A stretch of DNA of 35,595 nt from NCBI GenBank assembly GCA_902583715.1, contig CACHXC010000015.1:1-35595 (forward strand), in the 5' to 3' direction. The notes under the pieces are model-generated. The model saw nothing but the letters and a program-made list of their open reading frames with translations. It was not told the DNA's origin and searched no databases. A program made the translations under genes and the position numbers. Shown here in pieces: positions 12,098-35,076 of this stretch (positions are counted from its first letter, which is position 1; each line of letters starts with the position of its first letter). This DNA is from an uncultured SAR116 cluster alpha proteobacterium (GTDB lineage: Bacteria > Pseudomonadota > Alphaproteobacteria > Puniceispirillales > Puniceispirillaceae).

Positions 12098-12132
12098 AAC
12101 CGCACCAATTCATGATATTTTCCGGAGTCGAA

Positions 12133-12792: not shown

Positions 12793-12867
12793 CCTCTAAA
12801 GGATTTAATCGGTTCAGCTCAATTAGTTGGCGCCACAGCAAACATGCCTGCGTTCTGACTGCAGAAG

Positions 12868-14013: not shown

Positions 14014-14048
14014 GAAACCCTCTGAACATTTTGACACTTGAAAAAATT

Positions 14049-14089
14049 AATGTTATAAAGTTACCTTGTTAGCGTAACTATATTACATT
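14049..14089. promoter_or_regulatory. probable Zur operator between znuA and znuC
   Basis: Two inverted 16-nt arms (14049-14064 and 14074-14089) match at 14 of 16 positions around a 9-nt spacer. The inner part is a 19-bp palindrome with GTTAC and GTAAC ends, and the surroundings are AT-rich. It lies in the only intergenic gap between divergent znuA and znuC in an operon that encodes Zur, so control of both directions by Zur-Zn is the natural reading. The size would allow two dimers. No experimental consensus was compared. Confidence 0.7.
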
Positions 14090-14137
14090 TCAACGCTTGT
14101 CAACACCGTCTCCTTTGAAAAAAATGCCGGAGTCCAT

Positions 14138-14962: not shown

Positions 14963-15782
14963 CGATTTTTTCACTCGCGCAGTAATCGGCGGGATTGGTG
15001 TGGCATTACTTGCTGGACCACTTGGTTGTTTCATAGTTTGGCGGAGACTAGCTTACTTTGGCGACACACTATCACACTCAGCACTTCTAGGAGTAGCAAT
15101 AGCTCTTCTGCTGGAATTAAACATAACTTTCACAGTGTTCATAATATCTGTAGGTGTGGCAATGTTACTACTGCTTTTACAGCGACAAGCCAGATTATCT
15201 TCAGACGCTCTGTTGGGCCTGCTGGCGCATGCCACTCTTGCTGTTGGACTGGTTGTTTTAGCGTTCATGACTTGGGTAAGAGTTGATCTGATGGGTTTTC
15301 TCTTTGGGGACATTCTGGCCATAAACAAAGCAGATATCTTAACAATTTGGGTTGGTGGTTTAGCCGTTTTGATAGCGCTTGCCGTAATTTGGAAGCCGCT
15401 ATTTGCTGCAACAGTCAACTATGAAATTGCTGTAGCTGAGGGCTTGAAGCCAGACAGAGCTAACTTTTTTTTCATGGTTTTAATGGCCGCCGTGATCGCA
15501 ATTTCAATGAAAATCGTTGGTGTTTTGCTTATTACAGCACTCCTAATTATCCCAGCAGCAACAGCGAGACGTTTCTCCACCACTCCAGAGATGATGGCGC
15601 TTGTGGCTTCAATAATTGGTGCGGCGAGTGTTTGGGTTGGTCTTGAGGGATCGCTCCAATGGGACACCCCAGCCGGACCCAGCATCGTTGTGGCCGCACT
15701 TCTGGGTTTCATTATATCTCTTCTTCCAATTCAATGGCGTTTAAAACGCTCATCTTTTACACGGGCTAATGGAGGATTATAA
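14955..15782 (+). CDS. znuB: ZnuB, zinc ABC-transporter permease
   Basis: The 275-residue protein is very hydrophobic, with about eight membrane helices, and has the ABC-3 family pattern: 'GPLGCFIVWRRLAYFGDTLS' near the N-terminus, then 'HSALLGVAIA', and 'ALLIIPAATAR' near residue 200. It forms the inner-membrane channel that moves Zn2+ delivered by ZnuA. GAGGAG about 12 nt upstream within the end of znuC and the 8-nt overlap indicate coupling to znuC. The zur gene follows after 6 bp. Length and motifs are normal for the family. Confidence 0.93.
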   Translation: MLDDFFTRAVIGGIGVALLAGPLGCFIVWRRLAYFGDTLSHSALLGVAIALLLELNITFTVFIISVGVAMLLLLLQRQARLSSDALLGLLAHATLAVGLVVLAFMTWVRVDLMGFLFGDILAINKADILTIWVGGLAVLIALAVIWKPLFAATVNYEIAVAEGLKPDRANFFFMVLMAAVIAISMKIVGVLLITALLIIPAATARRFSTTPEMMALVASIIGAASVWVGLEGSLQWDTPAGPSIVVAALLGFIISLLPIQWRLKRSSFTRANGGL

Positions 15783-15788
15783 CGTCAA

Positions 15789-16193
15789 ATGCGAGATAAA
15801 CAGCACCTGAAATTATCGAAGAACCAAGCCCTTGTTTATGAAGCGCTCAGTCAAGCCAGCAAACCAGTTGGAGCATACGATTTGTTGGATCAATTAAAGG
15901 CGCATGGTCTGAAAGCCCCTCTTCAAATCTACCGAGCCCTGGAGAGCTTGATTGAGTTGAAAGTTGTTCATCGTCTCGAAAGTTTAAACGCTTGGACCAC
16001 TTGCTGTGATGCCGATCACGACTCGGCGCCAATTTTCGTAATTTGTGATGATTGTGGAGATGTGAAAGAACACATCGATACGGGTCTTAACCGCAGCATT
16101 GAAAAAATCTCCAAGAGAAGTGGCTTCACAGCGGAGAGACCAATAGTCGAAATTCATGGTCGATGTGGGGATTGTAGTCCGAAGACAAATTAG
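15789..16193 (+). CDS. zur: Zur, Fur-family zinc-responsive repressor
   Basis: The 134-residue protein has an N-terminal winged-helix domain (about residues 10-62) and a C-terminal metal/dimer domain. The structural zinc site is visible as C86-x2-C89 and C126-x2-C129. H61, C72 and H77 are candidates for the regulatory site. Family members bind DNA with Zn2+ and repress zinc uptake genes. It is the third gene of the operon, 6 bp after znuB and 11 bp before a COG0523 GTPase, so it is autoregulated if the 14049-14089 dyad is its operator. It is a little shorter than E. coli Zur. Peroxide or iron sensing by a Fur paralogue is unlikely in this context. Confidence 0.92.
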   Translation: MRDKQHLKLSKNQALVYEALSQASKPVGAYDLLDQLKAHGLKAPLQIYRALESLIELKVVHRLESLNAWTTCCDADHDSAPIFVICDDCGDVKEHIDTGLNRSIEKISKRSGFTAERPIVEIHGRCGDCSPKTN

Positions 16194-16204
16194 CGAGGGA
16201 AAAA

Positions 16205-17176
16205 ATGCAAACCAATAATCAAGTGCCTGTGACTGTGCTAACCGGTTTTCTGGGAGCTGGAAAAACTACTCTTCTAAATAGAATTTTAACTGAACAACAC
16301 GGGCAAAAATACGCCGTTATTGTAAATGAATTTGGAGAAGAAGGGATCGATAACGATCTCGTAGTTGATGCTGATGAAGAAGTGTTTGAGATGAATAACG
16401 GCTGCATATGCTGCACAGTGCGTGGAGATCTCATTCGTATTTTGGGTGGCCTGATGAAAAGGGCAGATCAATTAGATGCAATAATAGTTGAGACGACGGG
16501 TCTCGCGGATCCAGCTCCGGTTGCGCAGACATTTTTTGTTGATCAAGATGTAGCAGATCGAACTAAGCTCGATGCGATTGTTACCGTCGCTGACGCCGTG
16601 CACCTTCAAGATCAACTCGGCGAGCATCATGAGGCAGAGGAACAAATTGCATTTGCTGATGTCATTCTTTTAAACAAAACTGATCTTGTTGAAACCAGTG
16701 GGCTTGAGAGTGTTGAAAAACGGATACGTAAGATCAACCCATATGCGAAAATAATAAAAACGGCTCACTGCACTGCACCGCTCACAGAAGTTTTGGGTCT
16801 AGATGCTTTCAGTTTGGAGCGTATTTTGGAGGTTGAACCCGATTTTTTAGACTCTGATCATGATCACGAACACGATGACGACGTTACCAGTGTGTCGTAC
16901 ATCTCAGAAGAGCCGCTCGATCTGGAGAAATTCCAAGCCTGGTTCGGTAAACTCTTGCAAACTCATGGACAAGACATTCTTCGCTCCAAAGGGATCTTGG
17001 ATTTTGCCGGTATCGATGACCGGTACGTTTTTCAGGGTGTTCACATGCTCATGGACGCCTCCCCCATGGGAGCTTGGCCAAAAGAAAAAAAGAAAAGCTC
17101 TCGAGTTGTCTTCATTGGTCGCAACCTTGATAGTATGAATCTTAAAGAGGGCTTCGACGGGTGCAAAGCAACATAA
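16205..17176 (+). CDS. COG0523 (CobW/ZigA-type) GTPase, zinc metallochaperone candidate
   Basis: The 323-residue G3E GTPase shows Walker A 'GFLGAGKTT' (14-22), the COG0523 metal motif C67-x-C69-C70 in 'GCICC', 'ETTGLADP' (96-103) and the base-specificity motif 'NKTD' (157-160). An acidic His patch, 'DSDHDHEHDDD' (216-226), precedes the C-terminal CobW_C domain. Such proteins load zinc onto client metalloproteins using GTP. Being in the zur operon suggests it works in zinc starvation. GAGGG lies about 6 nt upstream of the ATG. Its last five codons overlap the start of the WD40 gene by 16 nt, so the two are probably made together. Confidence 0.9.
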   Translation: MQTNNQVPVTVLTGFLGAGKTTLLNRILTEQHGQKYAVIVNEFGEEGIDNDLVVDADEEVFEMNNGCICCTVRGDLIRILGGLMKRADQLDAIIVETTGLADPAPVAQTFFVDQDVADRTKLDAIVTVADAVHLQDQLGEHHEAEEQIAFADVILLNKTDLVETSGLESVEKRIRKINPYAKIIKTAHCTAPLTEVLGLDAFSLERILEVEPDFLDSDHDHEHDDDVTSVSYISEEPLDLEKFQAWFGKLLQTHGQDILRSKGILDFAGIDDRYVFQGVHMLMDASPMGAWPKEKKKSSRVVFIGRNLDSMNLKEGFDGCKAT

Positions 17177-18204
17177 ATACCGGTCGTACTCGGGAACTCG
17201 GCATTGGTGAAACGGAGATTGAAAAGCGTGGGCTTAAACTCAATTTCGATGCACCCCTCACCACCGTTGCATCGATCGACGATGCTGTGGGTGCTGGGTT
17301 TGGGGATGGCTCACTGACATTTTTTCGTCCCGGTTTAGCACCAGTCACCCATAAGATACATGAAGGTGTGATACTTTGCATGGCCAAACACAAAAACGGT
17401 TTGATTTCTGGGGGAGACGACGGCCGCTTTCTTGCCATCAAACAAAATGGTGACATAACAGAGATTGCAGTTTTTGGCACAAAGTGGGTCGACTGCGTAG
17501 CAGCCAGTGACGAAATTGTTGCGTGCTCATCAGGTTCTGATGTGCACCTTTTTGAGCATGGAAAATCTGACGGAAAAGTCTTTAAACATCAAAGCACCGT
17601 TGGTGGATTAGCTTTTGATAAGAAAGGTCAACGCTTAGCAGTCGCTCATTATGAGGGTGTAACGATCTGGGAACGCTCAAAGCGTCGCTGGAAGTCGACA
17701 AGACTATTTTGGAAAGGGTCACATGGCAATGTATCCTTTAGCCCCGACGGCAAATACATAGTAACCACCATGCAGGAAAATTCTGTCCATGGTTGGCGTT
17801 TGCGAGACAAAGGCGACCTTGCAATGTCTGGGTACCCCGCAAAGGTCAAAAGCCTTGATTGGGTTGGAGATACACCATTCCTTGCAACCTCTGGCGCAGA
17901 TGAGGCAATTTGTTGGCCGTTTGACGGTAAATTTGGACCGATGGAGCGTTCTCCAGTTTGTGTTGCTCACAATCGCAAGAAATTGGCAACCTTTGTAAGG
18001 GGATTGCCCGGGGAGGAAGCAGTTTTTGCAGGGTTTCAGGATGGCGCAGTTTTACTAGCCAAGCTTGATGAAGAAAAAAAGGCTATTGCTATCCGCGGCT
18101 CAACGAATGCTGAGGTCAGCGGCATAGCAGTCTCTAACTGCGGCTCTCATATTCTTATTGGCGATATAGCCGGAAATGTACTTTGGGCTCCTTTGTGGGC
18201 ATAG
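17161..18204 (+). CDS. WD40-repeat protein coupled to the zinc GTPase
   Basis: The 347-residue soluble protein consists of about seven weak WD40-type repeats forming one beta-propeller. Blades can be seen as 'GLISGGDDGRFLAI', 'HGNVSFSPDGKYIVTTMQEN', 'FLATSGADEAICWPF' and 'SHILIGDIAGNVLWAP'. There is no signal peptide, so it should be cytosolic. The GTG at 17161 is the best start, overlapping the GTPase end by 16 nt, which indicates translational coupling. Propellers of this kind act as protein-protein platforms, so it may dock client proteins for the GTPase; this is inference from the operon. It is unrelated to any metal-binding family by visible motifs. Confidence 0.85.
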   Translation: MQSNINTGRTRELGIGETEIEKRGLKLNFDAPLTTVASIDDAVGAGFGDGSLTFFRPGLAPVTHKIHEGVILCMAKHKNGLISGGDDGRFLAIKQNGDITEIAVFGTKWVDCVAASDEIVACSSGSDVHLFEHGKSDGKVFKHQSTVGGLAFDKKGQRLAVAHYEGVTIWERSKRRWKSTRLFWKGSHGNVSFSPDGKYIVTTMQENSVHGWRLRDKGDLAMSGYPAKVKSLDWVGDTPFLATSGADEAICWPFDGKFGPMERSPVCVAHNRKKLATFVRGLPGEEAVFAGFQDGAVLLAKLDEEKKAIAIRGSTNAEVSGIAVSNCGSHILIGDIAGNVLWAPLWA

Positions 18205-18220
18205 GAGATAGATTTTGGGA

Positions 18221-18466
18221 ATGTTCGACAAAAAGCGCCCGAACTCTGCGGCTGTTGGCAGAATAAAGGATTTGATCAAGCATAATTTGAATCTGCCCGA
18301 AACAACTATATTGAGCGTTGTAGAATTGACATGTCATGAGCCAGGTTGTCCACCTACCGAAACAATCATAACAGCACACGCTGAGGATAATTCGAGACGA
18401 GATTGGCGGATTAACAAACCAATCTCAGAAATTAGTGAGAAGGATATTAGCGCAATAAATGGTTAA
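18221..18466 (+). CDS. small conserved-looking protein with CHEPGC motif
   Basis: The protein has 81 residues from the ATG at 18221, or 83 from a TTG at 18215 whose spacing to the upstream GGAG (18204-18207) is actually better. It has a basic N-terminus, a central beta-type stretch and 'CHEPGCPPTET' at about residues 38-48, where two cysteines and a histidine could bind a metal. It has no signal peptide. It begins 16 bp after the WD40 gene and ends the plus-strand zinc operon, so it probably works with the GTPase and propeller. I do not recognise a named family. Confidence 0.75.
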   Translation: MFDKKRPNSAAVGRIKDLIKHNLNLPETTILSVVELTCHEPGCPPTETIITAHAEDNSRRDWRINKPISEISEKDISAING

Positions 18467-18496
18467 ATTAAGATAAACTAAAACAGCAGTGTCTGC

Positions 18497-19639
18497 TCAT
18501 AGCCAATGGCCAACTGATGAGCTTATCCAAGATTTAAAAAATTCATCAAGGGTCGCCCTTTCAATTCCATCTGTTATGAATACAAGCTTCGTCCGATGAT
18601 CTCCGTCTGGCCAATCGTCGAGCCATATTGGATCATGAAAAATATGTTGAACACCATGAATAACCATTGGGTTCCCCGGTCGATCAGCAGTATTGACAAT
18701 GCCTTTTATGCGAAGCAATCGAGACGCCTGGGTAAACAATAATGCCTCAAGCGCTGTGGCAAAAGTGTCAATCTTGACCGGCTGATCAAGAACTAAGGTG
18801 AAAGATCGAATGTTTTGTCCATGACGGGTCACATCATGTTGATGATGTCCACCGTTTTGTTCTGTCGTTATCTCATCTTCCATATGATGGTGGTGGTGGT
18901 GATCATCCTCGGCAGGAGAAACCTCAGCGTTAAGCCATTTTAGAACATCAATCGTTTTGTTGCTGGGATCGTAGAGAGATGTATCAAATAAATTACCAAA
19001 TTTAAATGACCCATCATGTCGATCCCAAATTTGCGCTGTTGGATTAAGCCTGGATAATTTAGTCCACAACCCATCGATACCCTCTTTGGGGATTTCTATA
19101 TTCTTTATATCCGTCTTTGTAACAACTATCCGGTCAGCGACTGCTACCTGCTTTTCACACTCTTTATGTTTTTCTATCGTCGCAAAACCGTTTGCAGAAT
19201 CCACAGTGGTAACGATGCCACCAAGCATGAACCGATGCTCCAAAAAACGGTCACTCATCAATGTATGAATGACAGGAGCAGGATCAGCCAAACCAGTGGA
19301 TTCCACCACAACCCGTTCAAACTGGGGTATTTCACCGCTCTCTCTCTTGCTATACAACATAAGTAGTGTCTGCCTTATGTCTCCGCGAACTGTGCAGCAA
19401 AGGCATCCTGATGTCATTTCGATGATTTGGTTTTCCGAATGCTCAATCAAAACACCATCGAGACCAACCTCGCCAAACTCGTTGACAATGACGGCTGTGT
19501 TTTGAAATTCTGAATGCCTAAGAATTTCTGACAGTAGTGTGGATTTACCACTTCCCAAAAAACCCGTCAAAAGAGTTACGGGTATAATATCTGGTTGACT
19601 TGTTGCACCCGTCGCATTTTGTCGCTCTGCTAACCCCAT
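18497..19639 (-). CDS. second COG0523 (CobW-type) GTPase with His-rich loop
   Basis: The 380-residue G3E GTPase has Walker A 'GFLGSGKST' (26-34), the metal motif C79-x-C81-C82 in 'GCLCC', 'ESTGLADP' (113-120) and 'TKTD' (174-177). A run of six histidines (247-252) and 'GGHHQHD' (264-270) lie in the loop before the CobW_C domain, more than in the first GTPase of this window. It is convergent with the plus-strand zinc operon and forms a pair with DUF1289 upstream (8 bp). A separate metal client or condition is likely, since one genome segment carries two divergent copies. Zinc is the probable metal because of context; cobalt chelation for B12 is not supported by neighbours. Confidence 0.88.
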   Translation of the reverse strand: MGLAERQNATGATSQPDIIPVTLLTGFLGSGKSTLLSEILRHSEFQNTAVIVNEFGEVGLDGVLIEHSENQIIEMTSGCLCCTVRGDIRQTLLMLYSKRESGEIPQFERVVVESTGLADPAPVIHTLMSDRFLEHRFMLGGIVTTVDSANGFATIEKHKECEKQVAVADRIVVTKTDIKNIEIPKEGIDGLWTKLSRLNPTAQIWDRHDGSFKFGNLFDTSLYDPSNKTIDVLKWLNAEVSPAEDDHHHHHHMEDEITTEQNGGHHQHDVTRHGQNIRSFTLVLDQPVKIDTFATALEALLFTQASRLLRIKGIVNTADRPGNPMVIHGVQHIFHDPIWLDDWPDGDHRTKLVFITDGIERATLDEFFKSWISSSVGHWL

Positions 19640-21180: not shown

Positions 21181-22299
21181 TCATTGGACTCTGTACTCGT
21201 TGATTGCGTTTAATTCTGGTACCACACCTATTCCCGGCTCATCGCCTAAATCCATGCAACTCATTGATGATTCAAAGAAACCCGCGGCTATAAATGTCCG
21301 TAATGGGTTTGGATTACAGTCTAACTCAAGAATCCCATCTCCACCAACAGCTGCTAAGGCATGAGCAGAAGCCATCAACCCCACACCACCGCCAAGAAAA
21401 TGTGGGCAATATGATTTCTTGGCCGCTATAATTGCTTTTGCAAGTGGCACTGTTTCGGTTAAACCACCCCATTTTGCCAAATCAGGTTGCACTATTCCTA
21501 AATAACCCGTTGAAATAATGTGTTTGAACCTGTCTTTGCTGAATATATTTTCGCCGGCGGCCAGAGGCATATTGCTAATTTCAATTAACCCATACCATTC
21601 TTCGTCAGGACGATCCGCAGCTATCGGCTCCTCTACCCAGCTTACATTGAAAGGATTGATATTTTGGATCATGTGTTTAGCTTGATCCATTGTCCATGAT
21701 TGATTTGCATCCAACATAAGTTTCCCATCACTGCCGAGCAAATCACGCAAATCTTTTATATTTTTGAGGTCGGTATCTTTATCGAATCCAATTTTCAATT
21801 TAAGAGAGTCATGGCCTGCAGCGAGTGCAACTTCGGCTGTTTTCCTGGCTGTTGCAGGACTAATACCACTCGCATAAGTGGCGACCTTATTTCTTGTTCC
21901 ACCGAGATATTTCCACAAAGGCTGCGAAAGACGCCTGGCGCACAAATCATGCATCGCTATGTCAACTCCGGCAATACACTGTGCAATTGGTCCATACTCG
22001 CCTGTCTGTAAACATAATACCCAAGTTTTACTGGTCAATTGTTCAAAAGCATCCTCTGGTTTTTCAAAAGATTGGGAGCAAATCAAATTGCTCAAGACAC
22101 TTTTGACAATCTTTGCACGGTGCTCAGCACCAACCGCTGGATAATTACACCATATCTCGCCAAACCCACTTACATTATCTTGGTCAACAAGTTTAACAAT
22201 CACCATAGGTCTATCGTTCATTGTACCAAAAGAAGTCTGCACCGGTGCTTCCAGCGGGTATCTATAGACATAAGTTTCAACTGCTTTGATTCTAATCAT
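21181..22299 (-). CDS. mandelate racemase/muconate-lactonizing (enolase superfamily) enzyme
   Basis: The 372-residue protein has the capping domain (about 1-125) and the beta/alpha barrel of the enolase superfamily. Catalytic positions resemble mandelate racemase: K167-x-K169, metal ligands D197, E223 and E250, and the D273-H300 dyad ('QPDLAKWGG', 'CPHFLGGG'). The protein therefore abstracts a proton alpha to a carboxylate with Mg2+, acting as racemase, epimerase or sugar-acid dehydratase; the substrate cannot be read. It is divergent from a sulfatase gene across 173 bp, which suggests joint use in breakdown of a sulfated carbohydrate or acid, though the pair is small. The start at 22299 has only a weak ribosome site. 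Confidence 0.88.
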   Translation of the reverse strand: MIRIKAVETYVYRYPLEAPVQTSFGTMNDRPMVIVKLVDQDNVSGFGEIWCNYPAVGAEHRAKIVKSVLSNLICSQSFEKPEDAFEQLTSKTWVLCLQTGEYGPIAQCIAGVDIAMHDLCARRLSQPLWKYLGGTRNKVATYASGISPATARKTAEVALAAGHDSLKLKIGFDKDTDLKNIKDLRDLLGSDGKLMLDANQSWTMDQAKHMIQNINPFNVSWVEEPIAADRPDEEWYGLIEISNMPLAAGENIFSKDRFKHIISTGYLGIVQPDLAKWGGLTETVPLAKAIIAAKKSYCPHFLGGGVGLMASAHALAAVGGDGILELDCNPNPLRTFIAAGFFESSMSCMDLGDEPGIGVVPELNAINEYRVQ

Positions 22300-22472
22300 T
22301 GTCTTTCTCTATTATTAACGCTGCTTGATACAGGAATTTGGCATTTTACAATTAGATTTTCACTTGTAACTGTTATATTTTTTTTTGTTTTTGTTAACCT
22401 AACAAACTTGGTTATCAAAATTCTAATAGTAACCAAAAAAGTCTCATTTACGCTTTATCAGGAAAAATTTTT

Positions 22473-24011
22473 ATGAAGCGACCAAATTTCATATTCATTA
22501 CCTCAGATCAGCAGCGCGGTGACTGCTACGGATTTATGGGTCGTAAGGTGAAAACACCACACTTGGATCAATTAAGGCGTGAAGGAATGCATCTAAGAAA
22601 CTGCATTTCACCGTCTCCGGTCTGCCAGCCAGCAAGGGCCGCAATCTTAACAGGCAAATTACCGAAAACTAATGGCGTAAAAGACAATGGTATTGATCTT
22701 CGGAGAGATCGCGGGGAACTTGGGTTTGCATCAGCACTCTCGAATGCTGGTTATGATACAAGTTTAATTGGCAAAGCCCACTTCGCCACTACGCAAACAT
22801 TTTCACCACAATCAACAGCCGAATGTAAAATTGGATCTGCAGAATACGCACCAAGCTGGAACGGTCCATACATGGGTTTTGAACATGTGGAGCTTCTAAC
22901 GCAAGGTCATTGGCATAAAATACGGCCGCCTGTTACCCCTCCGAGTGGTCAGCACTATGAAAATTGGTTTTTTAATATTGTTGCCAAAGAAAATGCTTTT
23001 GATTTGTGGAAATCTGAGACCAAACAGGGGCTGGGTGCTGCACAAACTTGGGCTTCCGCACTACCAGTTGCCTGGCATAGCTCGACTTGGGTGGCAGATC
23101 GATCAATTGACTGGTTGTCAAAAAGACACAAGGACAAACCTTTTTGTATGTGGGTCTCATTCCCTGATCCACACCACCCATTTGACTGTCCTGAACCGTG
23201 GAGCCTTCTCCATAATCCAAAAGAAGTCGATTTACCAGAATTCTTGGAAAAAGACCTAAATGAGCGGCCGTGGTGGCATAAACGCGCGCTTGAGGATGAA
23301 CCTGATTTGAAAGATCCAGTTTTAAAGCGGTTTCGTAAAGAGGGATCTCGAATGCCTGATCAGACCGAGGCCCAACTCCGCGAAATGACTGCGAATTACT
23401 ATGGAATGATATCACTTATTGATCATAGCGTTGGCCGAATTATAGCTTGCCTAAATGAAAATGATATCTTGGACGAGACTATTGTTATTTACACCTCTGA
23501 TCATGGGGATCACTTGGGAGAGCGTGGATTGTACTTGAAGGGACCAATGTTATACGACTCGTTAATAAACGTCGGGATGATAGTTCGTGGTCCGGGGATT
23601 GAAGCGGGTAGCAGTGAAATCGATCCCGTGACGACTCTAGATGTTGGCGCTACTTTCTGTGACTATGCTGGAACATCTCTGCCAATCGAGGCACAAAGTG
23701 TTTCTCTAAAAAACTGTTTTGAAGGCAAGGGCTCCCCACACAAAGCTGTATATTCTGAATGGGACGTTGCTCCAAGTAGATGCGGTGTCAGATTAGATCT
23801 GCGAACGGTGCATACCGGTAAATCAAAACTTACACTTGAACTTCAGTCAAATGATGGTGAGTTATATGACCTGATTAACGATGTAAATGAAATGAGAAAT
23901 CTCTGGAATGAGCCAAGTGCGGCTGACCTTCAAAAACAAATGCTTAGGTTACTGTGGTCAAGACCAGGTATTGAACTTAATGAATTTGACGACCCGATAG
24001 GTGTAGCCTAG
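22473..24011 (+). CDS. Cys-type (formylglycine) sulfatase
   Basis: The 512-residue protein belongs to the alkaline-phosphatase-superfamily sulfatases. It has 'FITSDQQRGD' with metal ligand D12, the formylglycine motif C51-x-P53-x-R55 in 'PVCQPARAAI', 'GKAHFA' (about 99-104) and, late, 'SDHGDHLGE' with a metal Asp-His pair. The cysteine must be oxidised to formylglycine by a sulfatase-modifying enzyme encoded elsewhere. I see no signal peptide, so it is probably cytoplasmic and acts on imported sulfate esters (choline-sulfatase-like or sugar-sulfate; not resolvable). AGGA lies about 10 nt upstream of the ATG. It shares the divergent 173-bp promoter region with the enolase-family enzyme. Confidence 0.9.
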   Translation: MKRPNFIFITSDQQRGDCYGFMGRKVKTPHLDQLRREGMHLRNCISPSPVCQPARAAILTGKLPKTNGVKDNGIDLRRDRGELGFASALSNAGYDTSLIGKAHFATTQTFSPQSTAECKIGSAEYAPSWNGPYMGFEHVELLTQGHWHKIRPPVTPPSGQHYENWFFNIVAKENAFDLWKSETKQGLGAAQTWASALPVAWHSSTWVADRSIDWLSKRHKDKPFCMWVSFPDPHHPFDCPEPWSLLHNPKEVDLPEFLEKDLNERPWWHKRALEDEPDLKDPVLKRFRKEGSRMPDQTEAQLREMTANYYGMISLIDHSVGRIIACLNENDILDETIVIYTSDHGDHLGERGLYLKGPMLYDSLINVGMIVRGPGIEAGSSEIDPVTTLDVGATFCDYAGTSLPIEAQSVSLKNCFEGKGSPHKAVYSEWDVAPSRCGVRLDLRTVHTGKSKLTLELQSNDGELYDLINDVNEMRNLWNEPSAADLQKQMLRLLWSRPGIELNEFDDPIGVA

Positions 24012-27089: not shown

Positions 27090-29189
27090 TTAGCGATTTT
27101 CTAAATCTTCCAAAAATTCACTACCAGGCTCAACACCTGTAACTAAGAGATGCTCTCTTGCCCTCGTGCACGCAACATACAATAAATGTCTTTCAGTCTC
27201 ATAAACTTCGGCTAGATCAGATGCATCTGTCACACGCTCGAGTCTCTCTTGGTGTGGCAAGATATCTTCATCGCAAGCCATAACCACAACAGATCTGAAT
27301 TCCAGGCCTTTTGCCAAATGCATTGTTCCAAAAGAAATAGCACTCGTATTTTCTTCATACTTGTCTGTGATTTTGAATGCCTTTTGCCCAGCGTCAATTA
27401 TCGCTGCCTTTGCTCTTGGCAGTTCATCTTCACTCCTAACAAAAATACCAATTTCAGATACTGGAACCCCGCCACTTATCTGCTGATTAATCCAATCTGA
27501 AATAATAGATGTTTCGTCTTCGAAATCATCAACTACTAAAATCTGTGGCGGCAAACTATTAAATAAAGAAATCGTCGCTTTGCGACTTTCCTCATTCTCA
27601 TCCAAATCTGAAATTTCTTTTGGAAGTAATCTGTCCGCCTGTTGCCTAATTTGATGAGATGTTCGGTAGTTTATTTTAAGCGTATTTGATCGACCACGCA
27701 CATCAACGCCCAGACTTTTCCAAGAAAACGGTTGCCTGAAAATCCGTTGGCCTAGATCGCCAGCGAAGAAAAGGCCATCTGTTTTATCTCCTGCCAAACG
27801 AGCAACAAATTTCAACTCACTAACGGAAATATCCTGTGCTTCATCAATGATGATGTTTTGGTATTTTATGGCAGGAGCTGAATTAGCATGCAACGAGCTG
27901 AAAACTGACGGCCATGTCGATAACTTACGGCTAGCAATGGTGTTCCCAACCCGATCAAAAATGCTCCAAAGCTTTTCACGTTGTGCGCCGCCTATCCGTG
28001 TTTTTCGACCCAGCCGCTTTATATCACGATAATCTTCCCATGACTTTAACTGCCACGCGTCAACAACATGTTCCCATTCAGCTAGCAAAAAACCAATGCT
28101 GAAATCTTCAACCTCCAACTCTTTACAAGCATATTTAAAAAAACTTTGAAGTTGTGAAACGGAAGCTATGTTCGGCTGCTTTCCAGATTGCTGCATCAAC
28201 TCATAGGCCACGCCTTCTAGATGACACACGTCTATTTTTTCTGATGCTGCAGATCCAACACCAGCCAGCCGCTCCAGTTTAACACGCATAGCATTGGCCA
28301 ACGTTTTGGTGAATGTTGTCAGTAATATTCTATTCTCTGGATATTTCTTATGCAAAGCTAGCGCGCGATGAATGGCCACAACTGTTTTACCTGTTCCAGC
28401 TGAACCTGCTACCCGCGCTGGACCATTGTAAGAACGATAAGCAAAAATGCGCTGAGCAGGGTGCAAAAACACTGTCCATTTTTCCCAAGGGTAATCAAGG
28501 GCAACTGCAAGAGCATCACTATCCTGCACCACACGGAAACGGCGTTGAGCATCTGGGTGTGCAAAGCCGCTATCTTCTATATCCGATGATTCTTCTCTAG
28601 CAGCTTGTGATTGCTGCACAGCCTGAAGGAATGAAACATCACCTCCAGCGACCTCTAGCAAAATTTCAGCAGCTTCTTGTGGTAAATGATCAGCCACATG
28701 TAAGAACGTCTCTTCATTCGCGCTCAACACATCATCAAGCCAATCTTCAGGTACACCAATTGACAGTAGTTGGTCTTTATTCAAGTCATCAAAAATGGCT
28801 GGTAACGCCTCAGGGGTTTCATCGGCAATCACAGGCCTCTGTATTGTGACGTCTTCAACCAGCTCACGAACTTCTACAATTTGGGCCGCCCCTGTCACAG
28901 GGTGGTTTTCGATACGCCGTCGCCCTGCCCAGGCATAGGCATCATCATGATGATCCACATAACAAAGTAAAATAGACGCGGAAGTTTTATGAACTATGAG
29001 GCGAATGTCACTATTTGCACGCACCGACCAGAAATTCGGGTCTTTAGCACGTTCAATTTTATGGAATTGTGTTGAATTTCCACTAAGGCCCATCTGTAGG
29101 TCAAAAGCGGTTGTCTTTACCGCCTTCTGTTCCTGGGCATTAAGCTTGCCAAGGCTAGACTGGAATGTATCAGCAATTCGAAATTCCAT
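27090..29189 (-). CDS. RelE-fold/UvrD-type SF1 helicase fusion
   Basis: The 699-residue protein has an N-terminal RelE/ParE-like fold (about 1-100, with 'FWSVRANSDIRLIVHK' and 'VDHHDDAYAWA'), a linker to about 210, and a superfamily-1 helicase. Helicase motifs are Walker A 'GSAGTGKT' (262-269), 'DEAQD' (449-453), 'GDLGQRIF', 'NYRTSHQIR', 'GTMHLAKGLEF' and 'LLYVACTRAREHL' near the C-terminus. The helicase part should unwind DNA with ATP. The RelE-like part may bind nucleic acid or ribosomes; whether it cuts RNA is unknown. It is third in an operon after res and mod (9 bp after mod), so it probably belongs to the restriction system. It ends 21 bp from the convergent GIY-YIG-like gene. Confidence 0.88.
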   Translation of the reverse strand: MEFRIADTFQSSLGKLNAQEQKAVKTTAFDLQMGLSGNSTQFHKIERAKDPNFWSVRANSDIRLIVHKTSASILLCYVDHHDDAYAWAGRRRIENHPVTGAAQIVEVRELVEDVTIQRPVIADETPEALPAIFDDLNKDQLLSIGVPEDWLDDVLSANEETFLHVADHLPQEAAEILLEVAGGDVSFLQAVQQSQAAREESSDIEDSGFAHPDAQRRFRVVQDSDALAVALDYPWEKWTVFLHPAQRIFAYRSYNGPARVAGSAGTGKTVVAIHRALALHKKYPENRILLTTFTKTLANAMRVKLERLAGVGSAASEKIDVCHLEGVAYELMQQSGKQPNIASVSQLQSFFKYACKELEVEDFSIGFLLAEWEHVVDAWQLKSWEDYRDIKRLGRKTRIGGAQREKLWSIFDRVGNTIASRKLSTWPSVFSSLHANSAPAIKYQNIIIDEAQDISVSELKFVARLAGDKTDGLFFAGDLGQRIFRQPFSWKSLGVDVRGRSNTLKINYRTSHQIRQQADRLLPKEISDLDENEESRKATISLFNSLPPQILVVDDFEDETSIISDWINQQISGGVPVSEIGIFVRSEDELPRAKAAIIDAGQKAFKITDKYEENTSAISFGTMHLAKGLEFRSVVVMACDEDILPHQERLERVTDASDLAEVYETERHLLYVACTRAREHLLVTGVEPGSEFLEDLENR

Positions 29190-29198
29190 CAGATAGCC

Positions 29199-31985
29199 TT
29201 AATCCAAATTGAACACTTTCATTACCTCGTCACCAAGATGATTGATGGCTTTTACAGCAATGCGTCCTGTTTCTGGCTTTGGAAATGGGCGGGAGATATC
29301 ACGATAAAGGCTTTCCCATGCTTCTTCATCTATCTCTGCTTTCAGGGCACTTTTCAGCTGTTTATACGGGTCATTAGCGCCAAGGAAATAGGCGTGTCTG
29401 ACAAAGAAACTTTCTTCGTTATAATCTGTGTCTATGAACCAAGCGGCGATACTTTCCGGCCCACCAGACACCACTTCTCCTTTTGAGGGGTGGAAGACAT
29501 CAACACCGTTGATCTTAACCTGCATCTTGCCATCCTCAGCATCAATGAAGTCAATATCTGGCTCACCAAATACAACAAACAGATTACCTGCCCCTGTGTT
29601 TTTGAGCTCTTCGGCCATATGCAGATCAGGGTTCATCCGTGCTTTCAGGATAGGCAGGTCAGCCAGTCTTTCAATTTCTGATGAATGCGCATCATAATTG
29701 AAGGCACAACAGACCAGCACGTCAAATTGTAGGTCACGTGCTTCACGAGCTGCGGCGACAATATCCGCCCGTCCCAGCGTGCCATATTCAGGACCAATGA
29801 AAACGGCCGCGCGTTTTTGTGGAGCGTTTTCACTGTCGGACTCCACATACCGCCCGTCACCGGAAATAAACTTGCCCGGGAAGAGGTTAATGTATGTGAA
29901 TTTAATTCGATCTTCTTTATGCGCCTGCTGAACGCCAGCGGTGCGCAGATGTTCTAAGATCACATTACCAAAATCAATCTCATCATCACTGCGGCCTGGG
30001 GCGACACGCAGGCCATCTGCCGCATCAAGATTGTCTAAGAGTTCACCATCATCATCGACTGCGATAACCTTATGTGGGGACAGGCTTTCCACCGTGAAGG
30101 GGCCGGCAACGCGCACCTTTGAATTGTCCACATAAGGCCGATCATGGAGGTATTCAGTTTCAGCATTGCGCGCTATGCTGTCATCAATATCTTTCTGGCG
30201 GGCGATCCGTGCCTCCCACCATTTTGCGTGAGCAGATTTAGCGGCTTCAGGCCAATTAGCCTCAGCTTCACGTGGGATTTCCCATTCTTCCCAAGTCTGA
30301 TTAAGGGCTGAATTTAACTGCTGACGGAGTGGCTCTAGAGTTTCCTGATGATTGTCCCAAATAACATCTATTTCAGAGTTATTGGCGATATCTCTCAGAG
30401 TGATATGGGGAACACGTTCATAAACAAAACCAGCTCTAATCTTGTTCTTGGGTAATTCAGATAGAACAAGGCCACTTAATTTATTTTCCTTAATCTGCCC
30501 ATCTCTTGAGTCCATCAAAATATAATGTGGAAATTCCGAGCTGATTATTCTTGATTTTGCTAAAGAGACTGCTACCCGAGATGTGTCAATTGTGATCCAA
30601 CGCCTTCCATACTTTTCAGCAACGGCAGCTGTTGTACCTGAACCACATGTTGGATCTAAAACTATATCACCAGGATCAGTCGTCATCAGCATGCAGCGCT
30701 TTACAACATCTTCATTAGTTTGAACAACATATATTGGATTTGAAGCGCCGATAACATCAGCCCAAAGATGATTTAATGGAGACACAGGAAAATCATCGAG
30801 AAAGAATTTATATCTAATACCAGATTTAGTGTAAATTATTCTATCTGCCTTCAAACACCTCTCTAGACCAATTTTACTTGTTCTATAGCATCCCCCAAGG
30901 GACATGCCTTGCCATTCAAAATCAAAGTGTGGATTGTTTTTTCTTACAAGGTCATCTGACTTAATCCCCCGAAATTGAGTAATTAAGTCAGCGGTTGAAT
31001 TAATTTTTTTGAATTCACCTTTTGTAATTAATTTTCCATCGGAGGATTGGAAATGCGACGCAAGTTCATCATCAACTCTAATATTGAACAATTTGTTCAT
31101 TTTACCTTTTGCAAGTTCACGATCCTTGGAGTACCAAATAATGTAGTCGCAAATTGTCGTTACAAAATCACTAGAAACAAGCGACCTCGTTTTTGTAAAT
31201 ACAATTTCACTAATAAAATTTTCTTGGCCAAACACTTCATCTAAAAGCGCTCTTACGCGATGCACATTTTCATCGCTAATTTGAACAAAAATCGAGCCAC
31301 TTTCATGAAGCAAGTCGCGCGATAATGTTAAGCGGTCTCTCAGATAGGTTAGATAAGAGTTTATGCCATCTGACCAAGTATCACGAAATGCTTTTACCAT
31401 TTCTGGTTCACGGCTAATTTGATCTGCCTTGCCGTCTTTTACATCACGCGACCGTGTCGATACCTGCCAGTTTGAGCCAAACTTAATCCCGTAAGGCGGG
31501 TCAAAATAGATGCATTGCACCTTCCCGCGCAGACCTTCTCTCTCCGCTAGTGAAGCCATCACCTGTAGGCTATCGCCCAAAATCATCCTGTTAGTCCAGT
31601 TCTGATCATGGGCGTAGAATTCTGTTTTGGCTTCTGGGTCCAGCTCGCCATCAAACATATCGGCAAACAGGTCAGGTGCTTCTTCCTGCGCTTTATCATC
31701 GCTGCGCTTTTTTGACTGGCGTATCAGATCATCAATGATATGTTTGGGATTAATTTTTTCCTGAATATAAAGCGGCGGGGCGGTGACCACTAAATCCGAC
31801 CAGTCTTGATCGTCCTTACCGCGCCAAACCAGCTGCGGGTCTAAATCAGAGTTGCGCGAATATTTCAATTCAATCGGCTTTTTATCTTCATCACGCATCA
31901 AATTTTCATATTCCGCGGTCGGAATATTGGTGCGTGTATCCCCTTCATGAGTAATGGTTTCAACTGATTTTGGTGTCTTAGCCAT
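29199..31985 (-). CDS. mod: type III-like DNA methyltransferase (Mod) with long C-terminal extension
   Basis: The 928-residue protein is a beta-class amino-methyltransferase. The catalytic 'DPPYGIKFG' (162-170) precedes the SAM-binding 'DPTCGSGTT' (444-452), with a target-recognition region of about 250 residues between. Mod subunits of type III systems methylate N6-adenine in an asymmetric site and direct the Res subunit. Typical Mods have 550-700 residues; here about 470 residues follow motif I, including helical and beta-rich parts. The gene starts 31 bp after res and precedes the helicase fusion by 9 bp. The recognition region (about 30690-31260) is visibly richer in A+T than its flanks, as if exchanged. 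Specificity is unknown. Confidence 0.9.
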   Translation of the reverse strand: MAKTPKSVETITHEGDTRTNIPTAEYENLMRDEDKKPIELKYSRNSDLDPQLVWRGKDDQDWSDLVVTAPPLYIQEKINPKHIIDDLIRQSKKRSDDKAQEEAPDLFADMFDGELDPEAKTEFYAHDQNWTNRMILGDSLQVMASLAEREGLRGKVQCIYFDPPYGIKFGSNWQVSTRSRDVKDGKADQISREPEMVKAFRDTWSDGINSYLTYLRDRLTLSRDLLHESGSIFVQISDENVHRVRALLDEVFGQENFISEIVFTKTRSLVSSDFVTTICDYIIWYSKDRELAKGKMNKLFNIRVDDELASHFQSSDGKLITKGEFKKINSTADLITQFRGIKSDDLVRKNNPHFDFEWQGMSLGGCYRTSKIGLERCLKADRIIYTKSGIRYKFFLDDFPVSPLNHLWADVIGASNPIYVVQTNEDVVKRCMLMTTDPGDIVLDPTCGSGTTAAVAEKYGRRWITIDTSRVAVSLAKSRIISSEFPHYILMDSRDGQIKENKLSGLVLSELPKNKIRAGFVYERVPHITLRDIANNSEIDVIWDNHQETLEPLRQQLNSALNQTWEEWEIPREAEANWPEAAKSAHAKWWEARIARQKDIDDSIARNAETEYLHDRPYVDNSKVRVAGPFTVESLSPHKVIAVDDDGELLDNLDAADGLRVAPGRSDDEIDFGNVILEHLRTAGVQQAHKEDRIKFTYINLFPGKFISGDGRYVESDSENAPQKRAAVFIGPEYGTLGRADIVAAAREARDLQFDVLVCCAFNYDAHSSEIERLADLPILKARMNPDLHMAEELKNTGAGNLFVVFGEPDIDFIDAEDGKMQVKINGVDVFHPSKGEVVSGGPESIAAWFIDTDYNEESFFVRHAYFLGANDPYKQLKSALKAEIDEEAWESLYRDISRPFPKPETGRIAVKAINHLGDEVMKVFNLD

Positions 31986-32016
31986 AGCTGATGTCTTCCT
32001 TGTGCGCCCTCAGGCT

Positions 32017-35000
32017 TTATTCTGCGGCATCTGTTTGTTCATTTTTTCGGGCGTATTTGGTCATCAGCCTGTCAACAGCTTCCTGCAGGCTGGCTTTACC
32101 CTCAAACACATCACCCTGAAATTCTACAAAGGCCCAGCGGCCAAATTTTTTCAAATTGTTCACACCCGGCACCCAAAAGGCTTTCATCGTGTTCGCTTTT
32201 TCAATCGATGCCTCACCGCGATAGCCCTTGACCTCAATAATCAGGTTCAGGGAGTCACCTGGCACGCCATCATCAACCTTAACAATAAAGTCGGGGCGGT
32301 ATTTGCGCGGCTCAGACCCCAGCAAATAAGGTACCTCGAACCCAAGCGAATGATTTTTGACATAAGCCAAAACGCGCGGGCTGTTTTCCAAGGCCTCTGC
32401 CATATCCAACTCCCATTCGCTGTCACCAATCACAAAATTAATATGTGATTTATGTTCACTGGTCTCATAGCGACGCGGATTGGATGTGGTGAAATTCACA
32501 TGAATGGACGAGCCTTCCATATTATACGGGTCAAGAACCGCTTTCACCAATTGCTCACCAGAATGAGTTTCGGTGATCGCAGCAGATATTTTATTGGCAG
32601 CCATATCCGCTAGCTGTTTGTACATCAATTGGGCGGGATAGGTGTTGCCAATGCATTCGAGGTGATTATCCATCCATTGCCGACAAATTGACCGCAACTG
32701 CCCAAAAAGATATAATTTAGGTTCATCACCAGGATCGCGATATTTGTGATAAAGAAGGTGTGCCGCCAAATTGAACAAGATGGTGCTCTTTCGCATATCT
32801 TTTGTATGTTCAAGTGTTAGCCTCTCACCTTTGCCAACAATGCCTTGTAAATCAACAATCGAAGGACCAACCAGTTCTGGCGTTAATCGAAGAGAGTGAT
32901 CTTGTGTAAAATTAGCTGTCAGTTTTGTGTTTGGAAGTTCGGTTCGATAACCTTCTACTTTGGGAAACCTTATTTCTAGATGATCACGTTCACGCATTGC
33001 TCGAACACGGATGGTCTCACGTGGTGGTCTTGGCTTTGAAACAACTGGTTCTGCCGCAAAGTCAAACGGTATGCCGAGTACATCGGCGTATTCAACGTCG
33101 AACAATCCATCTTCGTTCAGCTCATATGATTGGCGGCGAAGTGCGCGACCTACAACCTGCTCACAAAGCAGCTGTGTGCCAAAGGCTCGGACGCCAAGTA
33201 CATGCGTAACCGTGTTTGCATCCCAACCTTCTGTTAGCATCGATACCGAAACGACACATCTTATGCCTTGACCAAGTGAATTAGGTTTTCCAACGGTATT
33301 CATCACTTCACGAAGCAATGTGGCATCGTCAATGTTATCAGCTTCTTTTTGATTTCCCGTCCGCTCAAGAATTTCGCGGCGAAAGCGCTCTATTTCAAGA
33401 GCTGCCGCCTCCCTAAATTCTTTATCGAGTGCGTCTCCAGATTCTAACTGCGCGCTATCGATTAATAGTGTTTTTGGCTTTGATAGTCGCTGACCATTCT
33501 TATCGTAATTCTGGAAAAGCTCGAGACGGCCTTCGTGGAACGCAACTTCACCTTTTTCATTAGCGCGCTCAAAGCCAGAAATAAAATCATATACGAGCTT
33601 TGAAGTTGCTGTATTGTTACAAACCATAATGAAGACTGGAGGAACTGAAATCCCTTCTTTTTGCCAGCTTTCATAAACCTTCTCGTAATGGCCATATAAA
33701 GCTTCCAACGCTGTTTGAAGCATCGGCGGTAAAGAAAGAGGGTCGGCACTTGACTCCCCTCGTCCCATTTTAGGCATCTTTTTGCCAATATGTTCCCAAA
33801 GCTGCCGGTAAAGCGGCATCTCATCTCTCACAACATTATCAGCAACTGGCACACGAGGTAGCTTGACAATCCCGCATTCGATTGCGTCCATTAGCGAGAA
33901 ATCGCTGGACACCCACGGGAACAAAGTTCCCTCAGCATATCCAGAACCCTTGAGGAAAAATGGTGTTGCGGATAAATCGTATACAACGCGCACACCTAAT
34001 TTACGTTTTACCGCTTCGATTCCAGTTATCCATAGGCGGGCGGCTTCTTTATTTTTATCTGCTTCCTTTTTATCATCGCCTTTTAAATCATCTTCATCAG
34101 ACGATGGTTTTTCACGGTAGCAGTGATGGGCTTCATCATTAATAACCACAATATGCTTCATGCTCATTAATGCGCCCATGACGCGTTTGATCATCTGACC
34201 TTCTGTTTCCAGCGTCTGGATTTCTTCGCCTCTCCCTTTCAAAAGGGCTCGTCCTGTTTTTGAAATTTCTGTCGTTTCACGAAGTTTGAAGGCATGATAA
34301 TTAGTGATAATAATTTTAGCCTTCTCCATATCACCAATCATATCTGCGGGAATAAGCTCTCGTGTCTTATAGTAACTATCCGGATCATTAGGCTGAAGGA
34401 CGCGAAGGCGATCCTTAATTGTGATGCCAGGAGCGACAATCAAAAATGCTCTGGAAAAGGATTTTGTTTGGGGGTGACGAACCGCATTGACAGTTTGCCA
34501 TGCTATCAGCATCGCCATAACTGTAGTTTTCCCAGCACCCGTCGCTAACTTAAATGCAATTCTGGATATTTCTGGATTTGCCTGCTCGCTAGCCAATTTA
34601 AGGCGCTTTAAGATACCTTCCGTACGCTTCCCCATTTTAGGAGCAACTTCTGATAACCATATAGCAGTTTCGACCGCTTCGACTTGGCAGAAGAATGGAC
34701 GTATGGTTTCAAATTCGTGGGAGCGCCAATACCGGAGCAGTTGTGCTGTCTCTGCTGTAACTTGCCAGTCACGCTCATTCGGCAGCCGTCTCCATTGGTC
34801 GACTAATTCTCTAATCTCATTAATATACCCTGAAATATTATATTCTTGGTCGGTTGAAGACAGGTCATCTCCAGCATCCAAGACCATATCCATTTGGCCA
34901 TCATCGCGACCGTTTTTCCTGTGTCTTCCTCTAGCGCTCGGCACCGGGGTGATTAATGAAGAGGGTCGCCTTGCATGGTTAACAGATTGGGTAGGCTGTC

Positions 35001-35076
35001 CAGCCTCATCCAATTCCCAATGTCGACTTGGGTACTCGTATGGCGAGTTTAATATTGGTTTTTCAAAGAAGTCCAT
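32017..35076 (-). CDS. res: type III-like restriction helicase-endonuclease (Res)
   Basis: The 1019-residue protein has superfamily-2 helicase motifs: Walker A 'LATGAGKTT' (177-185), 'DEAH' (314-317) and the late 'GWDANTVTHV' plus 'QVVGRALRR'. At the C-terminus there is a PD-(D/E)xK nuclease, 'RPDFIVKV' with D929 and 'IIEVKGY' with E948 and K950. This is the layout of type III Res, which translocates or slides on ATP and cleaves away from the site together with Mod. It is the first gene of the operon, whereas classic type III loci have mod first. The start at 35076 is the first ATG of the frame. All key residues are present, so it should be active. Confidence 0.9.
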   Translation of the reverse strand: MDFFEKPILNSPYEYPSRHWELDEAGQPTQSVNHARRPSSLITPVPSARGRHRKNGRDDGQMDMVLDAGDDLSSTDQEYNISGYINEIRELVDQWRRLPNERDWQVTAETAQLLRYWRSHEFETIRPFFCQVEAVETAIWLSEVAPKMGKRTEGILKRLKLASEQANPEISRIAFKLATGAGKTTVMAMLIAWQTVNAVRHPQTKSFSRAFLIVAPGITIKDRLRVLQPNDPDSYYKTRELIPADMIGDMEKAKIIITNYHAFKLRETTEISKTGRALLKGRGEEIQTLETEGQMIKRVMGALMSMKHIVVINDEAHHCYREKPSSDEDDLKGDDKKEADKNKEAARLWITGIEAVKRKLGVRVVYDLSATPFFLKGSGYAEGTLFPWVSSDFSLMDAIECGIVKLPRVPVADNVVRDEMPLYRQLWEHIGKKMPKMGRGESSADPLSLPPMLQTALEALYGHYEKVYESWQKEGISVPPVFIMVCNNTATSKLVYDFISGFERANEKGEVAFHEGRLELFQNYDKNGQRLSKPKTLLIDSAQLESGDALDKEFREAAALEIERFRREILERTGNQKEADNIDDATLLREVMNTVGKPNSLGQGIRCVVSVSMLTEGWDANTVTHVLGVRAFGTQLLCEQVVGRALRRQSYELNEDGLFDVEYADVLGIPFDFAAEPVVSKPRPPRETIRVRAMRERDHLEIRFPKVEGYRTELPNTKLTANFTQDHSLRLTPELVGPSIVDLQGIVGKGERLTLEHTKDMRKSTILFNLAAHLLYHKYRDPGDEPKLYLFGQLRSICRQWMDNHLECIGNTYPAQLMYKQLADMAANKISAAITETHSGEQLVKAVLDPYNMEGSSIHVNFTTSNPRRYETSEHKSHINFVIGDSEWELDMAEALENSPRVLAYVKNHSLGFEVPYLLGSEPRKYRPDFIVKVDDGVPGDSLNLIIEVKGYRGEASIEKANTMKAFWVPGVNNLKKFGRWAFVEFQGDVFEGKASLQEAVDRLMTKYARKNEQTDAAE

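Follow-up and report, generated by a model that had tools for sequence, protein, structure and literature searches.

A reversed-order Res-Mod operon with a RelE-UvrD helicase as third gene and two slots for cargo

Do a type III-like restriction pair and the helicase gene that follows it form a single system, or do they merely lie side by side? The question is raised by three adjacent genes on a contig of an uncultured SAR116 cluster alphaproteobacterium (CACHXC010000015.1), which was analysed over its full 35,595 nt and is called the window here; the contig is the entire window, the genome bin is 60% complete, and 519 bp of DNA are visible upstream of the first gene. All three genes are minus-strand open reading frames (ORFs), in the order Res, a superfamily 2 (SF2) translocase with a nuclease domain, Mod, a DNA methyltransferase, and Hel, a RelE-like domain joined to a UvrD-like superfamily 1 (SF1) helicase. 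The original prediction, made from the DNA letters, had proposed one linked three-part defence system, and its gene order, coordinates and gaps of 31 and 9 bp match the ORF calls exactly. We consider it fairly probable that the triad forms a single restriction operon, based on methylation and belonging to a distinct subfamily, in which Hel acts downstream of Res-Mod and cargo genes occupy exchangeable slots.

The three genes and their linkage

Relatives of Hel were collected by scanning a single genome for each species, and the best 80 of at least 545 stretches encoding such relatives make up the named loci. Seven of the 80, with at most 1.8 kb of DNA upstream of Hel, were untestable; in all 73 others (72 in the fetched DNA, and L175) Hel is preceded by a same-strand Mod, which rules out a chance neighbourhood. 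L175 was considered as an exception, with no Mod within 10 kb, and was rejected as one: its Mod ends just outside the locus, and a 9.9-kb cargo bearing QatABCD lies between. Res precedes Mod in 59 of 59 judgeable loci (58 of the 72, and L175), the other 14 having fetched DNA that starts inside Mod or at most 364 bp from the first Mod match, where Res is not judgeable. The record titles of the 80 loci name Planctomycetota, Acidobacteria, Gemmatimonadetes, Verrucomicrobia, Kiritimatiellota, Nitrospirales and many proteobacteria, and further Anaerolinea, Herpetosiphon, Acidimicrobiales, Pseudanabaena, Chryseolinea, Clostridiales and KSB1; genera among these were placed in phyla by our own presumption, Anaerolinea and Herpetosiphon, for instance, being taken as Chloroflexi-type. 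The neighbourhoods show Hel to be a third component of the operon, never found away from Res-Mod in the testable copies of its close clade. The survey had been suggested in the original prediction, whose counter-case, a helicase mostly unlinked to res and mod, is not what Hel's subfamily displays.

The converse linkage was examined in two phyla. Among 398 genomes of the window's phylum, Hel was found in 30, Res matches in 32 and Mod matches in 24, and the close Hel relatives (44-57% identity) follow Res and Mod in the same order and on the same strand wherever the contig permits. Hel is present in 18 of the 19 testable Res-Mod loci of this draw, a count that includes one locus inferred across two contigs (G018) and one whose Res is interrupted by stops and whose Hel is split (G175) and leaves out three with a broken Res or Mod (G105, G065, G291). 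In a second phylum, 42 of 297 genomes had a Res match, and 20 of the 46 matched places were fetched; of the ten loci with Res at 57-67% identity, five carry Hel, two do not and three run off contig ends. One second-phylum Hel stands 8 kb downstream. Both phyla combined, Hel accompanies Res-Mod in 23 of the subfamily's 26 testable pairs. Taken with the 73 Hel relatives that have Mod upstream, these counts uphold one linked three-part unit, in which the dependence of Hel on Res-Mod is stricter than the reverse.

The fusion of a RelE-type fold to a helicase, also part of the original prediction, was borne out for both halves of Hel. The protein matches the Pfam families UvrD-helicase and UvrD_C, its AlphaFold2 model (18 sequences; predicted local distance difference test (pLDDT) 77, predicted template modelling score 0.61) has PcrA and UvrD as best structure matches, and all helicase motifs are kept across 85 aligned Hel proteins. 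On the N-terminal part Pfam gives a sub-threshold RelE hint only (HigB-like, E 0.04). The model of aa 1-110 reached a pLDDT of 90, and a fold search with it returned eight PDB matches at E ≤ 0.001, all of them toxin or toxin-antitoxin chains and seven named RelE, RelK/RelJK, YoeB or YafQ. Eight residues of this domain (H43, D61, R63, H80, H81, D82, Y85 and W87) are invariant in 28 of 28 triad Hel proteins; R63 and H81 align, non-significantly, to YoeB R65 and H83, which we take to be catalytic. Phage records searched for Hel yielded seven records, none covering 80% of the protein. Two partial copies were observed: the last 85 residues of Hel recur in L046 (17519-17824), 7 kb downstream of the intact gene, and a short RelE-only ORF without helicase, probably a triad remnant, directly follows a GmrSD-like C-terminus in L050 (557-964).

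Mod matches Pfam N6_N4_Mtase and, over aa 29-926 with 1136 bits, the PADLOC MTase_III model PDLC03632. In type III-like methyltransferases the recognition region sits between the two catalytic motifs, and in this region the mean identity profile over 75 Mod proteins falls to 0.12-0.4; the hypervariable stretch is the probable target-recognition region. Res carries the Pfam ResIII motor domain, with RE_endonuc slightly below its cut-off, and belongs by score to the BPTD_3080 family of restriction endonucleases (NCBIfam NF046055, restr_BPTD_3080; 1326 bits against a cut-off of 800, aa 4-1000). The family name covers Res alone and not the triad, and a literature search for the name BPTD_3080 found no paper. 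None of the window's motifs for ATP use, DNA cutting or methylation is damaged, and the alignments of relatives (61 Res, 75 Mod, 85 Hel; Table 1) show these motifs to be conserved.

Table 1. Features of the Res-Mod-Hel triad in the window
Feature	Coordinates	Strand	Basis
Res (1019 aa), gene 1: SF2 translocase with C-terminal PD-(D/E)XK nuclease	32017..35076	-	ORF, domain matches, motifs kept in 61 aligned Res
Res Walker A ATGAGKTT, aa 178-185	34522..34545	-	Alignment of 61 Res
Res nuclease core YRPDF ... IIEVKG, aa 926-951	32224..32301	-	P, D, E, K identical in 61/61
Slot 1 (Res-Mod), empty in the window, 31 bp	31986..32016	-	ORF gap
Mod (928 aa), gene 2: DNA methyltransferase of beta-class order	29199..31985	-	ORF, profile matches
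Mod catalytic motif DPPY, aa 162-165	31491..31502	-	Identical in 75/75
Mod probable target-recognition region, ~aa 250-430, hypervariable	30696..31238	-	Identity profile, homology breaks in 6/6 pairs
Mod S-adenosylmethionine-binding motif DPTCGSG, aa 444-450	30636..30656	-	Alignment of Mod proteins
Slot 2 (Mod-Hel), empty in the window, 9 bp	29190..29198	-	ORF gap
Hel (699 aa), gene 3: RelE-like domain and UvrD-like SF1 helicase	27090..29189	-	ORF, profiles, structure models
Hel RelE/YoeB-like domain, aa 1-106	28872..29189	-	Alignment, AlphaFold2 model, fold search
Hel helicase core, ~aa 250-685; GSAGTGKT, DEAQD, GDLGQRIF, VACTRAR conserved	27135..28442	-	Motifs, structure match

Elsewhere in the window, an ordinary metal-uptake cluster occupies 10449-19639 (NicO, DUF1007, ZnuA, an ABC transporter, a Fur-family regulator and two CobW proteins), and at 21181-24011 a gene for a mandelate racemase-like enzyme adjoins one for a sulfatase on the opposite strand.

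Cargo slots and exchange of parts

The window triad is the cargo-free form, and because its copy is empty the two slots were invisible to the original prediction. Slots were surveyed in 95 loci: the 80 named loci, the window, and 14 unnamed loci of the 398-genome draw with all three genes visible, loci that were broken, duplicate or cut by contig ends having been dropped. The Res-Mod gap, measurable in 73 loci, is at most 150 bp in 25, intermediate in 4 and longer than 350 bp in 44; for the Mod-Hel gap, measurable in 87, the corresponding counts are 20, 8 and 59. Where both gaps were measured (73 loci), 57 loci exceed 350 bp in one gap or both and 12, the window included, have neither slot filled. 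Another cargo-free triad is that of Pseudomonas indoloxydans JCM 14246 (L185), whose gaps are 47 and 53 bp. The gaps contain 191 ORFs of at least 70 aa, 163 of them in operon direction, and the 159 cargo ORFs of at least 80 aa fall into 106 clusters, 80 of which have a single member. Of the 26 clusters with several members, 24 are confined to a single slot; the mean over 5000 label shuffles was 11, and no shuffle reached 24.

The cargo scan covered 24 proteins from slot 1 and 83 from slot 2 (one of at least 100 aa per cluster, and seven from L175), and ten cargo proteins were examined singly. Among the matches listed, slot 1 holds GmrSD, Bro-N, PD-(D/E)XK, NYN, PIN, YhcG and Schlafen-AlbA families, with the PADLOC models HEC-06, PDC-S and SspE, and slot 2 holds AAA/SMC-like ATPases, SIR2, KAP, TatD, HerA, Fic, subtilase, ABC-3C parts and AbiJ, with the models AbiLi, AriA, GajA and PDC-M; most of these families have one member, and many cargo proteins are without a Pfam match there. 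Whole systems occur as well: all four QatABCD proteins in L175, a SIR2-HerA pair in L168 with the same clusters in L150, and a full-length DSR1 match (1647 bits) in L176. Systems of these three types protect against phages on their own. In L178 an IetS match stands beside an AAA ATPase that clusters with the ATPase of L177, and the pair recurs in four loci.

Exchange was followed by DNA comparison of six locus pairs with Hel identities of 83-98% (the pairs ranked 1-5 and 7 by Hel identity; rank 6 was skipped for the short contig of one member). In none of the six pairs do both slots agree in length and content, and in L198/L208, whose Hel proteins are 96% identical, neither slot does. Where slot 2 differs (L142/L143, L198/L208, L040/L212 and L145/L155), homology ends within ~15 bp of the Mod end and resumes at most 3 bp from the Hel start. 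Every pair has an additional homology break inside Mod, at ~aa 240-470 between the two catalytic motifs. Pairs of loci with shared cargo are barely more alike in Hel (median identity 0.64) than all pairs are (0.61). These comparisons show the operon to be a chassis in which each of the two slots and the recognition region of Mod are exchanged independently.

Among the 59 filled slot-2 stretches, 2 retain a truncated Hel start, and among the 44 filled slot-1 stretches, 1 retains a truncated Mod start; a further match there, in L141, is probably the genuine start of Mod. These remnants lend weak support to a putative reloading of the slots by recombination at core-gene starts. In L180 (5877-6095) and in slot 2 of L182 the truncated Hel starts are flanked by cargo genes and resemble scars of previous reloading.

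Relation to known systems and descent

Type III restriction-modification (R-M) resembles the triad in its DPPY-first methyltransferase and its SF2 helicase with a C-terminal PD-(D/E)XK nuclease. Mod has DPPY at aa 162-165, then the variable region and DPTCGSG at aa 444-450, and Res has the motor followed by the nuclease. Type III enzymes cut with ATP at pairs of unmethylated sites in head-to-head orientation and methylate one strand. The differences are the 928-aa Mod, the extra Hel, the two cargo slots and a Res barely matched by curated models (PADLOC REase_III over 43-86 aa only, the best at 24.5 bits over aa 606-648), together with the gene order: type III operons run mod then res, whereas Res comes first in the window and in every subfamily locus showing both genes, as the original prediction had noticed for the window. 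By these features the locus is not standard type III.

The helicase points to another system. Distant RelE-UvrD proteins (28-35% identity) do not lie near window-type Res or Mod; a YprA-family helicase adjoins them in 6/6 first-draw loci with upstream DNA visible (L051-L056), and likewise on an Escherichia coli plasmid, whose protein covers 99% of Hel at 31.5% identity, and on a cyanobacterial plasmid. We call these proteins ArmD-like, the published ArmD being compared by description. ARMADA type II shares with the triad a fusion of a RelE-like domain with a UvrD/GajB-like helicase, encoded by the last gene of a methyltransferase-based operon, but its ArmC (YprA), ArmA (BrxHII) and ArmB (PglX-like) are absent from the triad, which has a BPTD_3080-type Res and a type III-like Mod instead. 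YprA queries at E 1e-10 gave no match in 18 triad loci (L031-L048), and no such ORF lies beside the window triad; BrxHII-like and PglX-like partners are likewise missing, the best matches of Res and Mod lying elsewhere. ARMADA membership was rejected for want of YprA. The ArmD-like genes served as a control from within the helicase family: they start at most 90 bp after YprA in the seven measurable of nine loci, so there is no cargo slot there.

R63, H81, D82, Y85 and W87 of Hel are common to 8/8 ArmD-like proteins, and at position 43 the triad has H (28/28) where 7/8 ArmD-like proteins have E. Judged by such similarities, Hel is homologous to ArmD, its closest described relative. The accessible part of the ARMADA type II account reports that deleting any of the four genes abolishes protection, that ArmD K266A abolishes it and D454N causes partial loss, and that the system acts directly and non-abortively, infected cells staying intact (PMC12458937). 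On a Thermus thermophilus plasmid (L228) the RelE-UvrD protein stands beside a more distant YprA-like helicase matching DruE models and, despite this neighbour, has the triad-type H43, F53, W54 and D61; it may be intermediate between the triad and ArmD-like clades.

Two further systems were considered. Hma, like the triad, is a three-gene methylase system with embedded defence genes, and some of the triad cargo matches HEC-05/HEC-06 models; HmaB, as far as its partly available description goes, is a 5-methylcytosine methyltransferase (PMC8565338), unlike the N6/N4-type window Mod. Hma membership was rejected on this difference, and no Hma model is among the matches listed for the triad proteins. 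Gabija is approached by the helicase part of Hel, which partly matches GajB models in the helicase motifs only; no gene for a GajA OLD-family nuclease lies beside the window Hel, and membership was rejected for lack of this partner. Neither the triad nor its slots are described in the literature searched, which did not take in the preprint introducing embedded defence genes, and that preprint may include some of the loci. As far as searched, the triad is therefore undescribed; defence genes embedded in other systems are already a known idea, described for Hma and type I R-M in the accessible parts of two accounts (PMC12988326, PMC11411939). The original prediction's view of an uncharacterised arrangement thus stands for the triad as a whole and falls for its third part, which is ArmD-like and not of an unknown kind.

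Relatives of Res and Mod without Hel bear on descent. Within the subfamily, L121/G125 has a frameshifted Mod, HicAB-like genes nearby on the opposite strand and no Hel in the genome; L264/G453 has Mod followed by an AAA-type gene and no Hel; and L262/G416 has Res-Mod without Hel among Mu-like prophage genes. The flanks of L262 (G416:C1:1767000-1786000) look portal/MuF-like on the left and MuA/MuB-like on the right by eye, which suggests that the pair is carried by phages. Seven loci with Res at 45-49% identity lack Hel, with Res then Mod in the six of them that show both, and a whole-genome search in five genomes of this tier found no Hel. Still more distant pairs (Res 31-40%) have the classical Mod-before-Res order, in 3/3 loci at 31-33% and in two of the first phylum, likewise without Hel (L128, L129, L273-L275). 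These relatives show that Res and Mod descend from the type III-like Mod-Res lineage and that their gene order is reversed, and from the Hel-less 45-49% and classical 31-40% tiers we infer, as the simplest course, a classical Mod-Res pair, then reversal, then gain of Hel. Two Hel-less loci of the 45-49% tier hold a matching two-gene cargo type in slot 1 (L266 4617-6251, L267 10387-12017), by eye a three-Cys-motif partner-like protein and a phage Gp37/68-like protein; from such cargo, slot 1 may be older than Hel. In L129 (3422-6193) a different UvrD-like gene, without a RelE domain, directly follows the classical-order pair.

How the operon may work

In the operon that we propose, Mod would mark host sequence, and a Res-Mod complex would inspect unmodified incoming DNA, move with ATP and cut. 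Hel, a UvrD-type motor needing free single strands, would load at the cut or on replication intermediates and unwind or strip the DNA, rendering the break irreparable and leaving cellular exonucleases to finish; its RelE-like domain probably either targets nucleic acid or anchors Hel to the complex. Cargo would share the operon's expression and probably extends protection to phages that get past the methylation-based step. The ArmD results, obtained with other partners and known to us from the accessible part of the account, argue for a direct, non-abortive role of Hel.

Some observations pull the other way. A profile search of PDB sequences with the RelE part was not significant (YoeB at E 0.74, ranked below a TPR protein at E 0.38). 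A midpoint-rooted tree places all eight ArmD-like proteins outside the group of 85 triad Hel proteins, but the node has a support of only 0.44. Profile searches found no recognisable nuclease domain in Hel, which also leaves the original suggestion that Hel degrades cleaved DNA ends unsupported as written, another nuclease being needed. Hel is not essential to every such Res-Mod pair, as L121, L262, L264 and the 45-49% tier attest, and the cargo may consist of unrelated passengers.

The original prediction had also offered Hel as an abortive-infection trigger. On such a reading, recognition or cutting by Res-Mod would free a RelE-like RNase, which would cleave cellular mRNA and stop growth. 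The RelE/YoeB fold of aa 1-110 favours this, as do R63 and H81, invariant in triad and ArmD-like proteins alike. We nevertheless regard it as unlikely: ArmD, the closest relative to have been studied, is part of a system described as non-abortive in what is available of its account, the ORF list shows no dedicated antitoxin gene beside the window Hel, and position 43 lies near the third YoeB catalytic position, so the H/E difference there suggests that the Hel site is not simply YoeB's. Hel could instead protect the host by repairing or clearing breaks that Res makes in its own DNA, for example at unmethylated sites after a recognition-region swap. Its UvrD/PcrA-like fold is that of a repair-helicase family, and frequent change of the Mod recognition region should raise the risk of self-cutting; since some Res-Mod pairs live without Hel, and ArmD is needed for defence itself in the ARMADA work as far as accessible, this seems improbable. 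An ordinary type III pair with an unrelated helicase next door would fit the homology of Res and Mod to the classical-order, Hel-less pairs, but is contradicted by the survey of this Hel subfamily, in which linkage holds over many phyla even with up to ~10 kb of cargo between Mod and Hel, and we give it hardly any credence.

For the slots, a plainer account is quite likely: they could be mere landing places in an expressed, selected locus, with cargo independent of Res, Mod and Hel. QatABCD, SIR2-HerA and DSR1 are complete systems that work alone, and the gene embedding already described in Hma and type I R-M, in the partial accounts cited above, points the same way. The slot specificity of the clusters speaks against indifferent landing places; it fits a positional constraint and is no proof of coupling.

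A much bolder proposal, which we find rather doubtful, would make the triad an immune chassis of general, modular design, present in more than ten bacterial phyla, with Hel as the common sensor that licenses the effectors in the slots. Were it true, Hel would read damaged or unmodified DNA marked by Res-Mod, specificity (the Mod recognition region) and outcome (the cargo) would be swappable like cartridges, and ARMADA type II would be a second, unrelated front end on the same RelE-UvrD relay.

Short of that proposal, the trio of one window becomes a recognisable system across many phyla. Cargo-free copies such as the window's represent its minimal three-gene version, and the two slots supply a list of candidate defence genes and show where new immune genes might be sought. 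With the same kind of RelE-UvrD helicase in the triad and in ARMADA type II, the role of the helicase becomes testable in two unrelated contexts.

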